A stretch of 8,248 nt of DNA from Verrucomicrobia bacterium SCGC AAA164-M04. GTDB lineage: Bacteria; Verrucomicrobiota; Verrucomicrobiae; Verrucomicrobiales; Akkermansiaceae. The first letter of the stretch is position 1, and each line of letters opens with the position of its first letter. A program made the position numbers and the translations under genes. Location of the stretch: assembly GCA_000383735.1 (NCBI GenBank), contig KB912201.1, forward strand, positions 62,969 through 71,216, read 5' to 3'. Shown here in pieces: positions 3,138 to 8,248 of the stretch. The notes beneath the pieces are model-generated. The model saw only the letters and a program-made list of their open reading frames with translations, had not been told where the DNA came from and searched no databases.

Positions 3138-4757
3138 ATGAGCTTGAGTTACCAAAATCGTCAACAGCGCTGGAGCAAATGGGTGAAGATCCTAAAACGC
3201 CTATGGGAATTTGCCTGGAAAGGCGGTCTTACCTTACTCATTCCCCTCTTATTAATGATCGGTTGGTATGCCTGGCACGCCAGCAAGTTCGACCTATCCG
3301 AAACCTCCCGTATGCCCGAGCGCACCATCTTGCTTGACCGTAATGGAATCGAAATCGGGACGATCCACGGAGCCAATCGTCGCCTTGTTGAATACGAAGA
3401 AGTTCCCACTTTCCTGAAAATCTGCCTTTTTGCTCGGGAAGACGCCCGCTTCATGGACCACGAAGGGGTCGATTTCTGGGGCCTGGCCCGCGCGACCTTG
3501 AGGAATGCCAAAGACCTCGACTTCACCCAAGGGGCTTCCACCCTTTCAATGCAACTGGCACGGAATACTTTCGATTTACGTGAGAAAAAATCCCTCAACC
3601 GAAAATTCCTCGAAATTGCGATCACCTACCGCATCGAATCAAAATTCTCAAAGTCAGAAATCCTAACGGCTTATCTCAATCGAATTTATTTTGGATCCGG
3701 CTTCAATGGTATCGAAGAAGCTTCCCTCAATTATTTTGGCCGCCCTACCTCCAGACTTACAAAAGGCCAATGTGCTCTCCTCGTCGGGATAATTAGAGCA
3801 CCACACGCCTGCAGTCCGTGGCGTAATCTTGAGGGAGCAGTCCGCCAGCGCAATGAAGTCCTCGACCGGCTCATCACAACTGAGGTGATCACCCCAGAAC
3901 AAGCTGATGCGATCAAATCCCAATCTCTCGATCTCCGTAATCCCAACTCCGGAGATCTTGAAACCGATCATGGAACACGCGTGCTGCGGCGTCCTCTCGA
4001 AATCGTTCTCAACGAAACACAGATTACGACTGGTGGCTTGGAAGTCATCACCTCAATTGATTTTCAGCTTCAACGCAAACTTGAAAAACTGGTTCAAGAA
4101 ACCTCGATTCCGGATGGATGCCAAATGGCTTCGATCGCTATCGATCCCCAAAACGGAGATGTTCTTGGAGTTGTCGGATGCCGTGAAAAAAAACCCACCG
4201 GCTTCAACCGAGCCCTTGATTCCCATCGCGACCTTGGCCCGCTCATGATTGAGCCCTTGATCGGGACAATTGCCCTCGAACGCGGACACACACCAATTGT
4301 CGGAAAGCCCGTCGCTACGGGACGCCAACTTCAGGCCCAAGACGCAATCCAGCTACTCAAAAGATTTGGATTTGAAGGGACTTTTGGAGTTGGCGAAGAT
4401 CTTTACCGGGGAACACTTAGCGTCTCACCTCTTGAATTGGCCACTGCTTACGCCACCCTTCTCCAAGATGGCTCGCGGCCTACTCCCGTCTTCGTTCGCG
4501 AACTAATCCAGAAAGAAAGAACCCTGTTCTCGCGCCCCGCCGCTTCCTTCCCCGCCTTCGCAGATCATTCTCGATTGGAAAAAGTTCCCGATTTCATCAG
4601 TGGCTTATCTCTTCCTGGAACTGATCATTGGGCTGCTACTCTTAGCCCAGAGAAAGTGATTGTTGTTTGGATCGGCTACGATAATCCAAAACCCTTCAAT
4701 TTAAGCCCCCAGGATTCGCAGAGATTGAAAACAGACCTTCAGAGAATCGCTCGCTAA
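3138..4757 (+). CDS. GT51 peptidoglycan glycosyltransferase (class A PBP) with an inactive transpeptidase domain
   Basis: The GT51 domain polymerises lipid II into glycan strands on the outer face of the inner membrane. A basic N-terminus and one membrane segment (about 31-47) precede it. All GT51 motifs are present: REDARFMDHEGVDFWG (100-115) with catalytic Glu101, QGASTLSMQLARN (131-143), NRKFLE (154-159) with the second glutamate Glu159, and KSEILTAYLNRIYFG (172-186). A class A PBP linker follows (TSIDFQLQ, 305-312), then a transpeptidase-like domain (IAIDPQNGDVLGVVG, 333-347; VVWIGYDN, 509-516). The penicillin-binding motifs are gone. Where SxxK is expected after the FNRA segment there is PLMIEP (368-373), with Leu and Glu for Ser and Lys. 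SxN reads roughly LQA, and KTGT is replaced near SLPGT. At 539 residues it is short for class A. It probably polymerises but cannot cross-link, and its C-terminal domain may be structural. The start has no clear ribosome-binding site. Confidence 0.9.
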   Translation: MSLSYQNRQQRWSKWVKILKRLWEFAWKGGLTLLIPLLLMIGWYAWHASKFDLSETSRMPERTILLDRNGIEIGTIHGANRRLVEYEEVPTFLKICLFAREDARFMDHEGVDFWGLARATLRNAKDLDFTQGASTLSMQLARNTFDLREKKSLNRKFLEIAITYRIESKFSKSEILTAYLNRIYFGSGFNGIEEASLNYFGRPTSRLTKGQCALLVGIIRAPHACSPWRNLEGAVRQRNEVLDRLITTEVITPEQADAIKSQSLDLRNPNSGDLETDHGTRVLRRPLEIVLNETQITTGGLEVITSIDFQLQRKLEKLVQETSIPDGCQMASIAIDPQNGDVLGVVGCREKKPTGFNRALDSHRDLGPLMIEPLIGTIALERGHTPIVGKPVATGRQLQAQDAIQLLKRFGFEGTFGVGEDLYRGTLSVSPLELATAYATLLQDGSRPTPVFVRELIQKERTLFSRPAASFPAFADHSRLEKVPDFISGLSLPGTDHWAATLSPEKVIVVWIGYDNPKPFNLSPQDSQRLKTDLQRIAR

Positions 4758-4844
4758 GTTGGCACATCAAACTCCCTTGATACTTCTTAAATTTTTCCAG
4801 CTGTCTCAAGATCTTTTTGTAGACCTTAGCTCTCTGAGGGAACG

Positions 4845-4874
4845 AAAAAACCGGAAGAATCCTTCCGGTTTTTT
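4845..4874. terminator. Bidirectional intrinsic terminator between convergent genes
   Basis: A perfect 13-bp stem, AAAAAACCGGAAG (4845-4857) against CTTCCGGTTTTTT (4862-4874), closes a four-base AATC loop. The flanking A and T runs give a U tract in either direction. It ends both the plus-strand operon, about 90 bases after the GT51 stop, and the minus-strand selenoprotein candidate, 25 bases past its TAG. The rest of 4758-4898 shows nothing else. Confidence 0.9.
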
Positions 4875-4898
4875 GTGTCATAATACAGTAGAGTATAC

Positions 4899-5294
4899 CT
4901 ACTTTTTGGCGAGGAGCTTGGCCACCACGGCATCGACTTCTTTCTTGCCATAAGTGTGTCCTTCGATCGTATCGACGAGTTTACCGCTCTTATCCTTGGC
5001 GATAATACCGTGCCCCTTGAGCTTAGCCTTTTTGATTTCTTCTTTGCTCTTGCCGGTTCCGACGAGGACGTTCTTGAAGGTGATTTCTTTCCCCTTTGTC
5101 TTTTTGAGATCATTCACGATGACCGAAATTTTTGCACAAAGCGGTCATCCATCGAAGTAATAATAAGTGAGCGTGGGAACTTTAGCCTCAGCAGCGACCT
5201 TCGCCACAGGCGCCTTTGACTCATCTGCTGAAGCAGTATTGATTAGGAGAATGGGCGCCAAAGCTGCGACCATCCAAGTGATTGTTTTTTTCAT
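4899..5294 (-). CDS. Candidate secreted thioredoxin-like selenoprotein (UxxC), in-frame UGA read as Sec50
   Basis: Two apparent ORFs lie in one frame separated only by a TGA at 5145-5147. Read through, they give 131 residues. Residues 1-23 form a signal peptide: KK, a hydrophobic core, then NTASA before DES, which fits cleavage after Ala23. A short Ala/Lys linker leads to strand-like LTYYYFDG, then U50-P-L-C53, then a helix with NDLKK. Next comes VLVGTG, a Lys-rich helix, the GIIAKD-SGKLVDTIEG hairpin and a final helix, a thioredoxin-like order. U50 and C53 are the only Cys/Sec residues, so they form a natural redox pair. UGA ends other genes here, so recoding must be local. I chose ATG 5294 because it begins a clean signal peptide; GTG 5342 would put a second hydrophobic stretch before it. 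No cis-Pro is evident after the third strand. The stop is TAG. The substrate is unknown; a periplasmic thiol oxidoreductase is inferred. The alternative is a Cys-to-stop pseudogene. Confidence 0.78.
5108..5147 (-). promoter_or_regulatory. Putative bacterial SECIS element and Sec UGA codon
   Basis: On the minus strand the UGA occupies 5147-5145. Twenty bases later GGUCAU (5124-5119) pairs with AUGAUC (5113-5108), with one G-U pair, around the loop CGUGA (5118-5114). A GU near the start of a small apical loop shortly after the UGA is what SelB recognises in known bacterial SECIS hairpins. A second, mutually exclusive fold exists: GAUGACCG, which contains the UGA (5150-5143), pairs perfectly over 8 bp with CGGUCAUC (5126-5119 or adjacent bases), and its inner UUU-GUGC-AAA also presents a GU. 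Both are hand-derived folds. Confidence 0.6.
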
Positions 5295-5365
5295 CGTGAA
5301 GAGAGTAGCCAGTAGAAACTTTATGGCAAGCCAATGCCACACTACTTCGATTCAGCCACTTCGCC

Positions 5366-6814
5366 CTAGGCCAAGAGATCTTTCACGACCTTGCCATGGA
5401 CATCAGTGAGGCGGTAATCACGACCCTGAAAGCGGTAGGTGAGTTTCTCGTGGTCAAATCCAAGAAGATGCATCCAAGTTGCTTGTAAATCGTGAACGTG
5501 GACCCTGTCACGGGCCACCGAAAAACCAAGTTCATCGGACGCACCGTGGGTGTAACCCCCTTTCACTCCTCCACCAGCCATGACCATAGTGTAACAATCA
5601 GGAAAGTGATCGCGACCAAGGACCGTTCCCTTAGCTGTCCGGCCTTCACGGAATGGAGTCCGCCCAAATTCTCCGCCGAGAACAATTAGGGTGTCGTCAA
5701 AGAGTCCTCGCTCCTTGAGGTCATTGATCAATGCCGCAATAGGTTTATCCATGGTGGCACATTTGTTGGTAAGCCCATCGCGTATGTCTTCCTTTGGATT
5801 TGTCCCGTGGAAATCCCAGCCCCAGTCGAAGAGCTGAACAAAACGAACTCCATCTTCGGCGAGACGCCGCGCGAGAAGGCAGTTGTTAGCGAAGCTCGAG
5901 GCACCGGGTTGAGCGCCGTAGGACTCAAGAGTCTTCTTCGATTCCTTCGAAATATCCATAACCTCGGGGACTGACATTTGCATACGAAAGGCTAGTTCGT
6001 ATTGTGCCATGCGAGTCAGGGTCTCAGGATGAGCAAAATCTTTGGAAGCGGCCTCATTGAGATCACGGAGGGCATCAAGGCTGGAGCGACGCAGGCTACG
6101 ATCCATACCCGGAGGATCAGTGACATAAAGAACAGGATCCCCTTTTGAACGACATTGCACGCCTTGATGGACAGACGGAATAAACCCCGAATCGAAAGAA
6201 CTCTTCCCGCCATTCGGCTGCACTCCACTTGAGATAAGGACCACGTATCCGGGAAGGTTTTGGTTTTCCGATCCCAGACCATAGGTAGTCCAGGCCCCGA
6301 AGGAAGGACGGCCTGGCTGCTGAAAGCCAGTGTGCACGAAAAGCTCAGCGGGAGCATGATTGAAATGATCAGTAGTCATCGAATTGATGATACAGAGATC
6401 GTCAGCCACGCCGTGCAAGTGCGGAATCGCGTCAGACATCCAAAGACCGTTCTTACCATACTGTTTAAAAGTCCGGGGGCTTCCCATCAGTTTGGGGGTT
6501 CCTGAAGTGAAGGCGAACTTCTTCCCCTTGATATATTCGTCCGGGCATTCCTGGCCGTCGCGCGTCACGAGCTCGGGCTTGTGGTCCCACAGATCGAGGT
6601 GGGGCGGTGATCCAGTGAGGTGAAGGTAAATCACCCGCTTCGCCTTGGGCGCGAAGTGCGGTAGCTTAGCAAGGAGGGGATTGTTCGGAGCTTCTAAGCC
6701 CATAGCATCGGACGCGAGCATCTCGCTAAGCGCAACCCCGCCGAGACCCATGGAGCATTGTTTGAAAAAGTGCCGCCGCGTTTTGTATTGCAGGCTTTCT
6801 AACTGTGGATTCAT
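5366..6814 (-). CDS. DUF1501 family protein, Tat-exported
   Basis: This 482-residue protein belongs to DUF1501, a family in the alkaline phosphatase/sulfatase-like superfamily that is abundant in Planctomycetes and Verrucomicrobia; no reaction is established. The N-terminus has a twin-arginine signal, TRRHFFKQC (12-20), followed by a hydrophobic GLGGVALSEML stretch, so it should be exported folded. Family marks are VIYLHLTGSPPHLDLWDHKP (61-80), the Asn-His-rich DHFNHAPAE (149-157), WGWDFHG (331-337), VLGGEFGRTP (378-387), GRDHFPDC (400-407), MAGGGVKGG (412-420), and YRFQGRDYRLTDVHG (460-474). Its length is typical. Asp and His in these motifs resemble metal ligands of the superfamily (inference). 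The start follows the upstream DUF1553 stop by 23 bases, the usual tandem order for this pair. No Shine-Dalgarno is visible. No terminator is evident between it and the selenoprotein candidate (71 bases). Confidence 0.9.
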   Translation of the reverse strand: MNPQLESLQYKTRRHFFKQCSMGLGGVALSEMLASDAMGLEAPNNPLLAKLPHFAPKAKRVIYLHLTGSPPHLDLWDHKPELVTRDGQECPDEYIKGKKFAFTSGTPKLMGSPRTFKQYGKNGLWMSDAIPHLHGVADDLCIINSMTTDHFNHAPAELFVHTGFQQPGRPSFGAWTTYGLGSENQNLPGYVVLISSGVQPNGGKSSFDSGFIPSVHQGVQCRSKGDPVLYVTDPPGMDRSLRRSSLDALRDLNEAASKDFAHPETLTRMAQYELAFRMQMSVPEVMDISKESKKTLESYGAQPGASSFANNCLLARRLAEDGVRFVQLFDWGWDFHGTNPKEDIRDGLTNKCATMDKPIAALINDLKERGLFDDTLIVLGGEFGRTPFREGRTAKGTVLGRDHFPDCYTMVMAGGGVKGGYTHGASDELGFSVARDRVHVHDLQATWMHLLGFDHEKLTYRFQGRDYRLTDVHGKVVKDLLA

Positions 6815-6837
6815 ACGATGAAAATTGGTTGGAGATT

Positions 6838-8248
6838 TTAGCGTTTCATCAAGGTCTCATCAAGATTGAGAAGGATATTCGCAACAACGGTAAGGGAGGC
6901 AAGCTCTACGACATCGATGTCTTTAGGAACTGGACCGATAGGATTGGTGGCCATTTCCTGCGCGAGCTTTTGGTCGGCGGCATACTTGCTGCGTGTAGAA
7001 TCGTATAAAGCGATCAGGCGAGAAGTTTCAAGCTCGTTAGGAGAGCGAGAAAGGCAAAGTTGGAAGCCATGTTTAATCATGGTAGCGACCGACCCTTTGT
7101 GCGCCACCATTCGTCGAGAGAGAGCCTGAGCAGCTTCTATGTAGACCGGGTCATTCAAGGTCACGAGAGCTTGCAACGGCGTGTTGGTATTCCCACGCCG
7201 CACAGTGCAAACCTCGCGATTGGGAGCTCCGAAGGTCGCCATGGAAGGATACGGACTGGAACGACGCCAGCTAGTATAAACGCCACGACGGAACTTATCC
7301 TCGCCAGAGCTTGTGCTCCAATCAGTGCCGCCTCCGAAGGCAGCCTTGAGACCAAGATTTGGCTGGGGCGGACGAACCGGAACACCGTACATTTTCGAAC
7401 TCAACAAACCCGAGACCGCGAGAGCCTGGTCGCGGATCATTTCCGCGGAAAGCCGGACCCGAGGACCACGGGCAACAAGACGATTGTCGGGATCTAGAAC
7501 AGCCATCTCATCGCTGACATGAGAATTCTGGCGATAGACCGATGAAGTGACGAGAAGGCGAAGAAAATTCTTAACATCCCATCCCCCATCCATGAATTCG
7601 ACCGCAAGCCAATCAAGGAGTTCGGGATGAGAAGGCCGTTCGCCCTGAGATCCAAACTCCTCACTTGTAAGGACGATTCCTACGCCGAAGAAATTCTCCC
7701 AAAACCGATTGGCGACTACACGGGCAGTCAGAGGGTTCTCTCGGTCCACCAACCATTTCGCCATCGCGAGTCGGTCAGGATTCGAGCCCTTGGGAAGCGA
7801 GCCGAAAACTTGAGGCACCCCCGGGCCGACCTCTTCCCCAAGACTCAAATAGCTCCCACGAAGTTGAATATGGGTCTTACGATGCCTATCCTTAGGCAGG
7901 TCACGCATAATGGGAACCGAGGTGAGAGGCTTGACGGAGGCCAGTTGCTTTTCGAGATCCGCGAGCTTCTTGGTGACAGCAAGTATGCTGGGATTGGTCT
8001 TACGGTAAACAGCAACTAATTGAGCCTTCTCAGCAGCGCTACGTTTGGCAGGAGAGGTTTTAAGGATTGCTATCATCTCGGAGGAAAGCGCCATGGAAGG
8101 ACCTGCAGAATCAGTTGCCAAAATCCGGAAGTGGCCAAGCGCATGATTTGGATAGCGCTGCAGAAGTCTAAGTTCGAGATCCCGCCCATCGAGAGGTTTA
8201 TTTAACTCGATCACGATATGATGATCCTGACCCAGCGATCCGCCAACC
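6838..8248 (-). CDS. DUF1549/DUF1553 (planctomycete cytochrome c-associated) protein, C-terminal part; 5' end outside window
   Basis: The frame is open to the right edge, so about 469 C-terminal residues are visible. The apparent GTG start at 8214 is internal: reading continues upstream as VGGSLGQDHHIVIELNKPL. The part near the edge (LLQRYPNHALGHFRILATD) is the beta-rich, F5/8-like end typical of the middle of these proteins. Next come a coiled linker rich in Lys/Ala, then THIQLRGSYLSLGEEVGPGVP, and the DUF1553 core: WLVDRENPLTARVVANRFWE, FGSQGERPSHPELLDWLAVEF, LLVTSSVYRQNS, GPRVRLSAEMIRDQAL, and RRGNTNTPLQALVTLNDPVYIEAAQ. Full-length relatives often carry an N-terminal cytochrome c-like (PSCyt1) domain and DUF1549; both would lie outside the window. 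They occur next to DUF1501 genes and are thought to be exported, with function unknown. The stop is TAA, 23 bases before DUF1501. Confidence 0.92.
   Translation of the reverse strand, partial: VGGSLGQDHHIVIELNKPLDGRDLELRLLQRYPNHALGHFRILATDSAGPSMALSSEMIAILKTSPAKRSAAEKAQLVAVYRKTNPSILAVTKKLADLEKQLASVKPLTSVPIMRDLPKDRHRKTHIQLRGSYLSLGEEVGPGVPQVFGSLPKGSNPDRLAMAKWLVDRENPLTARVVANRFWENFFGVGIVLTSEEFGSQGERPSHPELLDWLAVEFMDGGWDVKNFLRLLVTSSVYRQNSHVSDEMAVLDPDNRLVARGPRVRLSAEMIRDQALAVSGLLSSKMYGVPVRPPQPNLGLKAAFGGGTDWSTSSGEDKFRRGVYTSWRRSSPYPSMATFGAPNREVCTVRRGNTNTPLQALVTLNDPVYIEAAQALSRRMVAHKGSVATMIKHGFQLCLSRSPNELETSRLIALYDSTRSKYAADQKLAQEMATNPIGPVPKDIDVVELASLTVVANILLNLDETLMKR

Follow-up and report, generated by a model that had tools for sequence, protein, structure and literature searches.

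A putative exported thioredoxin-fold selenoprotein with a conserved UGA codon in marine Verrucomicrobia

The locus and its reading frame

The stretch of DNA analysed here (8,248 nucleotides, hereafter the window) contains a minus-strand reading frame from 5294 to 4899 with a single TGA, giving a protein of 131 residues when the TGA is taken as selenocysteine (Sec, U) and ending with a TAG stop codon at 4901–4899 (Table 1). When called with translation table 11 the frame falls apart into two ORFs, one of 65 aa running from an upstream GTG up to the TGA and one of 72 aa starting at the GTG at 5117, just as a first-pass annotation made from the letters had described it. Its further statements, that U occupies position 50 of the read-through product and that C53 is the sole cysteine, were both seen in the translation. 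The N terminus, judged by eye, comprises a basic MKK, a hydrophobic core and ASA preceding D24; this fits the earlier description of the protein as secreted, and we infer that export itself is highly likely. In an AlphaFold model the pLDDT is low at residues 1–13 and 16–36, and the domain that follows starts with PTLTYYYFDG-U-PLCAKISVIVNDLKK.

Table 1 Features at the locus, with positions in the window
Feature	Position	Strand	Basis
Candidate selenoprotein gene, 131 codons including UGA (Sec50), plus TAG stop	4899–5294	minus	translation, homologues
UGA codon (Sec50), first position of U-P-L-C	5145–5147	minus	conserved TGA in homologues
Cys53 codon, partner of Sec50, invariant (32 rows)	5136–5138	minus	alignment
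Signal-peptide-like N terminus, residues 1–23	5226–5294	minus	read by eye, translation and homologues
Variable linker, residues 24–40	5175–5225	minus	low pLDDT, poor conservation
Predicted thioredoxin-fold domain, residues 41–131	4902–5174	minus	AlphaFold model
His95-Gly96, invariant (32 rows)	5007–5012	minus	alignment; Gly96 aligns with thioredoxin cis-Pro
His113, invariant (32 rows)	4956–4958	minus	alignment
Putative bSECIS apical hairpin, GGUCAU-CGUGA-AUGAUC	5108–5124	minus	RNAalifold, pair counts, bSECIS model (available text of PMC13188914)
Codons 58–61, GTC ATC GTG AAT, no synonymous change (32 rows)	5112–5123	minus	codon alignment
Perfect 13-bp inverted repeat, 4-nt loop, A/T runs at ends	4845–4874	minus	by eye
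Upstream neighbour, DUF1501 protein (PF07394)	5366–6814	minus	Pfam

The best match to the window was L001 from Akkermansiaceae bacterium FRAM18_bin341 (genome G001), with 98.9% identity over 7310 bases and a second matching segment of 98.6% over 833 bases, and the window thus derives from the same species or a very close one. The upstream neighbour forms a gene pair with a PSD1/DUF1553 gene (5366–8247). Clustering placed relatives of this pair next to the gene in the window, L001–L008 and L020–L022, and other neighbours at the remaining loci; Pfam assignments of neighbours were made for the window genes and the PSD1 protein of L020. As each of seven carrier genomes has 42–72 DUF1501 matches, adjacency to DUF1501 is weak evidence. 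The gene at 3138–4757 encodes a penicillin-binding protein whose transglycosylase domain is strong and whose transpeptidase match is only partial, barely exceeding the cut-off (24.3 vs 22.1 bits). Between this convergent plus-strand gene and the selenoprotein gene sits the inverted repeat of Table 1, likely a terminator after the latter; a promoter and terminator consensus scan of 4700–5500 listed nothing, this repeat included.

Conservation of the UGA codon and of the hairpin that follows it

Homologues were searched for with read-through proteins carrying Cys at position 50. A scan of genome_contigs returned 22 relatives, from Verrucomicrobial MAGs and one bacterial bin, with 50–95% identity over the best segment, and codon 50 is TGA in all 22 loci. 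Within the family of G001, 33 of 244 genomes matched, yielding 33 site-spanning copies in 32 genomes, each with exactly one in-frame TGA; in the 33rd genome, G434, the sequence ends before the Sec site. An order-level draw gave matches in 48 of 386 genomes, of which 44 copies spanned the site and had exactly one TGA (44/44), the other four matches being G434 and three distant, stop-free thioredoxins. A phylum draw of 387 genomes returned only G001 and one distant match without a stop, and a plasmid collection gave no match to the selenoprotein. In total, 52 site-spanning copies from 51 Verrucomicrobial genomes have exactly one in-frame TGA (52/52), at a position confirmed as codon 50 in those loci whose sites were read as DNA.

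The argument of the first-pass annotation that chance would hardly place a TGA at exactly this codon is borne out by this recurrence, in the 22 loci as in every site-spanning copy, and the homologue search it proposed found the TGA kept between conserved flanks and no Cys homologue. Y45, Y46 and D48 on one side of the UGA and C53 on the other are invariant in 32 rows. Decay after the UGA was looked for and is absent, with dN/dS values of 0.00–0.14 downstream of it (10 pairs), indicating that purifying selection acts past the UGA. TGA also serves as the terminal stop of the family genes in L018, L053, L056, L084 and L090 and is thus not reassigned throughout. Comparison of the homologues shows the UGA at codon 50 to be conserved as a sense codon.

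RNAalifold, given 32 aligned sequences (30 distinct) and no prompting, predicted exactly one hairpin, at columns 24–40 from the UGA; in the window it lies 26 nt past the UGA, within codons 57–63. The bSECIS model, as laid out in the available text of PMC13188914, has a loop of 3–9 nt with a G in its first two positions, an upper stem of 4–16 bp, a distance of 16–37 nt from the UGA and an MFE of −7.5 kcal/mol or below. The window hairpin agrees with this model (5-nt loop CGUGA with G at position 2 and then U, 6 bp, 26 nt), and its fold of −12.0 kcal/mol over 54 nt is below the energy limit. The hairpin is part of the MFE fold in 32 of 34 rows (exceptions L010 and L011) and in 14 of 16 further rows (exceptions L079 and L090); seven of the 34 rows fold above −7.5 kcal/mol.

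Synonymous variation is missing in only four of the 33 residue-conserved codon columns of the 32 rows, namely codons 58–61. V58 is always encoded by GTC and V60 always by GTG, and two valines two codons apart being fixed as different codons is not explained by codon bias alone. The exact string GTC-ATC-GTG-AAT is departed from in seven of 46 more diverse rows (L079, L084–L086, L088–L090). These rows, all 46 distinct, show pairing in 97.1% of 276 cells, a fraction matched by none of 500 shuffles and compared with 14.5–47.5% in slid registers. The measures that the tool calls more robust, double-sided changes and pair types, are weaker than the pairing fraction: two pairs changed on both sides (equalled by 16 of 500 shuffles) and four further pair types (121 of 500). 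For the 32 rows alone the shuffle tests were not striking (32/500). In L088–L090 the U-A pair 26-38 has become C-G on both sides, accompanied by V58→A and D62→G, which may be a single event, and the loop there reads AGUUG with its G-U retained, loop G31-U32 being invariant in all 46 rows. Pairing is lost at 24-40 in six of the 46 rows, at 27-37 in L079 and at 25-39 in L090. Comparison thus shows that a conserved SECIS-like hairpin follows the UGA at 26 nt and that divergent members mostly keep it.

Two other candidate structures were considered. A lower SECIS stem is plausible in single folds, but the two subgroups differ in register and many cells are unpaired, and it was not established. The inverted repeat GAUGACCG/CGGUCAUC around the UGA, conspicuous in the window, is missing in U-V-L-C members and overlaps the conserved hairpin, and it was rejected as the SECIS. 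Rfam gave three sub-threshold matches on the window and none at the gathering threshold on L001, L012 and L020.

The selenocysteine machinery named in the first-pass annotation (SelA, SelB, SelD and tRNA-Sec) was found in most carrier genomes tested. Counting G434 as a carrier, SelA is present in 49 of 52, at E ≤ 1e-20 in all 21 first carriers and in 28 of 31 further ones (27 of 31 over the cut-off), and missing from G508, G737 and G744; among 14 control genomes only E. coli has it. In the draw of 244 genomes, for which the carrier and SelA scans took the same genomes as far as listed, SelA occurs in 32 of 33 carriers vs 38 of 211 non-carriers (Fisher p 2e-19, overstated because the genomes are related). 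SelB is over the cut-off in 17/21 carriers vs 2/14 controls, and SelD was found in 20/21 carriers and over the cut-off in 2/14 controls. tRNA-Sec is over the cut-off in 16/21 carriers and also in 5/14 controls, so that this test is not very specific, and ARAGORN identified four carrier tRNAs as tRNA-SeC with anticodon TCA. The SelD gene itself is interrupted by a single in-frame TGA in 19 of the 20 genomes with SelD (none in G017), and in L094 and L095, both read, this TGA falls in SCGGUASK; a second selenoprotein, this one known, thus seems to be encoded with UGA in the carrier genomes. G001, the genome nearest to the window, has SelA, SelB and a UGA-containing SelD, with no tRNA-Sec found over the cut-off, and in G014 and G020 neither SelB nor tRNA-Sec is over it; our guess is that such gaps stem from incomplete assemblies.

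Predicted fold and relation to known families

The AlphaFold model has a thioredoxin fold, and most of the structural matches listed, which share 10–22% identity with it, are thioredoxins, making this fold a near-certain prediction. The first-pass annotation had assigned a thioredoxin-like core to the downstream half of the frame: the fold stands, but not its confinement to that half, since the first strand (residues 41–46) lies upstream of the UGA and the fold therefore needs both halves.

No Pfam or NCBIfam model matched the window protein at cut-off, PF00085 reaching 13.3 vs the 23.5 bits of its cut-off. The 32 members gave weak thioredoxin-type and stray profile matches, the strongest being to NF047697 (thioredoxin TrxA; 28/32, best E 3.2e-6). 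On E-values only, TIGR01068 weakly matches five of the 32 (best 0.0039) and PF00085 two (best 0.0029). NF038096/slr1796, which we take to be a TxlA relative of the cd02950 group, weakly matches 18 of the 32. With bacterial thioredoxins (PF00085, TIGR01068), including those with Sec in a UxxC motif, the protein shares the predicted fold and the placement of UxxC just ahead of helix 1. It differs from them in its signal-peptide-like N terminus and in having U(P/V/F/I/M)(L/M/F)C across the family where thioredoxin has CGPC. Furthermore, where the third strand of thioredoxin starts with the cis-Pro, this family has His-Gly, the invariant Gly96 being the first residue of strand 96–100 in the model.

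Several described selenoproteins are comparable as far as the available text of their sources goes. GOS_C (NF045500; PMC2398784, PMC13188914) is likewise marine and has a thioredoxin-like fold and UxxC, but 312 Cys homologues of it are reported (PMC2398784), whereas none was found for the present family, and NF045500 matches none of the 32 members at E ≤ 0.01. GOS 'Trx-like 3' (cd02950; PMC2398784) is also a thioredoxin-like UxxC group and, compared by description only, differs in having Cys homologues (212 Sec and 183 Cys sequences). HUIPC (NF047660), SaoT (NF040730) and a DsbG-like family (NF041057) are further thioredoxin- or Dsb-like UxxC selenoproteins (PMC13188914), again without a match at E ≤ 0.01 in the 32 members. 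Among the 119 prokaryotic selenoprotein families and subfamilies in the available text of the 2026 inventory (PMC13188914) no entry was recognised as this one, judged by names, models and motifs, and the stem 'verrucomicrob' was not found in the available text of PMC13188914, PMC2398784, PMC12013277, PMC5029168 and PMC9312934. Some family sequences may be hidden in the GOS 'Trx-like' classes (PMC2398784, available text). Set apart by names, models and motifs, this group of thioredoxin-fold selenoproteins is either a family in its own right and new, or belongs to a broad metagenomic class in which it has gone unrecognised, and it has two unusual features, the lack of any Cys form found and the lack of the cis-proline.

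Proposed function and alternative readings

Taken as a whole, the gene very probably encodes an exported thioredoxin-fold selenoprotein. The single step of Sec insertion at UGA codon 50 can be held with greater confidence still, bordering on certainty, and would proceed by SelB carrying Sec-tRNA binding to the hairpin. The signal peptide would then drive export, and a periplasmic Se-S oxidoreductase is the most likely function. In such an enzyme Sec50, placed where helix 1 begins, would attack a disulfide, peroxide or similar substrate in the periplasm through its selenolate, Cys53 would resolve the intermediate as an intramolecular Se-S bond, and an electron donor would reduce this bond. His95 takes the position that in thioredoxin precedes the cis-Pro, and its role is probably to tune the selenolate. 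The first-pass annotation had proposed a thioredoxin-fold redox selenoprotein, which the model and the position of UxxC support; thiol/selenol redox activity is in our judgement probable, and naming any specific substrate would be speculative.

The alternative that retains most weight concerns function: Sec50-Cys53 together with His95 and His113 could bind a metal or metalloid, making the selenoprotein a periplasmic metallochaperone and not an oxidoreductase. A Gly replaces the cis-Pro, which may block metal binding to CxxC (PMC2757866, available text, citing Su et al. 2007). Both histidines are moreover invariant in the 32 rows. UxxC is, however, typical of redox selenoproteins, and we consider a metal-binding role rather unlikely.

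A true stop at the UGA would imply a 49-residue secreted peptide followed by a re-initiated protein of 72–81 residues, or a regulatory terminator. Of 140 database proteins among the matches listed, 120 do start after the site (72–146 residues, mostly 72–82), and U-P-M-C members have an ATG as the second codon past the UGA. Against this, the downstream part would be without the first strand of the modelled fold, the invariant residues lie on both sides of the UGA, the conserved hairpin is at SECIS distance, and a stop would be expected to drift to TAA or TAG instead of being TGA in 52 of 52 copies; a stop is thus very improbable. Slightly less probable again is a UGA read as tryptophan by a code change or a suppressor tRNA. 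The other 20 of the 140 proteins among the matches listed have W at the Sec site, but presumably because a gene caller translated TGA as Trp in these entries. In the loci read as DNA the codon is always TGA and never TGG (79/79 motif reads in overlapping loci), TGA also terminates some family genes, and a tryptophan code would neither need a conserved hairpin nor track SelA. A nonsense mutation, pseudogene or sequencing error has nothing in its favour except the TGA itself and is negligible, as the TGA recurs in many assemblies, which excludes the sequencing error that the first-pass annotation had considered, and as purifying selection is seen past it.

For the selenoprotein, a Cys homologue would be the usual, though not obligatory, proof of the Sec site. 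Cys at this site was found in 0 of the 140 database proteins among the matches listed, and genome searches at the phylum (387), family (244) and order (386 genomes) level gave no Cys form despite Cys-bearing queries. The protein searches returned 81, 201 and 179 matches, with the best 120 of 201 and the best 120 of 179 listed; the search with 201 matches scored the 7996 candidates sharing most words, and a Cys form scoring below about 112 bits might fall outside the best 120 listed. The absence of a Cys form is accordingly provisional. The closest Cys relatives met, among the matches listed and in the genome searches, are distant thioredoxins. Four stop-free matches were rejected as members, an exported thioredoxin-like protein with CIPC in G086 (E 2.5e-4) and thioredoxins with CGPC or CGQC in G668, G514 and G307 (E 3e-5 to 5e-3).

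One possible, though doubtful, explanation is that the family is Sec-only, with Cys never at the Sec site because the active-site chemistry is too demanding for it. The active site would then comprise Sec50, Cys53, the His95-Gly96 pair that substitutes for the cis-proline, and the invariant His113, tentatively with metal or metalloid binding. If true, this would run counter to what the deep-Sep authors write, namely that Cys-containing homologues now seem to exist for all known selenoproteins (PMC12013277, available text). The same text notes that selenoproteins without Cys homologues escape methods based on Cys/Sec pairs, and such methods would miss the present family. Annotation hides it as well, the 140 entries among the matches listed being either stubs past the Sec site or proteins carrying Trp. 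A family with a seemingly irreplaceable Sec makes the question 'why selenium?' testable, and the Sec machinery of marine Verrucomicrobiales would gain a client besides SelD.

Two database proteins, P0062 and P0063 (the latter named Rubritalea sp. by its source), start past a first Sec site. Their C-terminal residues, ...PSLTFYYYDQ and ...PSLTYYYIDQ, are those found ahead of the UGA in the family, and both are probably two-domain proteins with a second UGA. In the genus of G018, where such two-domain forms were looked for, two of 12 genomes match the family and no tandem form was seen. One MAG (JAKMGP01) has two copies, L003 and L005, whose gene neighbourhoods agree and whose DNA differs clearly; either a duplication took place or the bin mixes two species.
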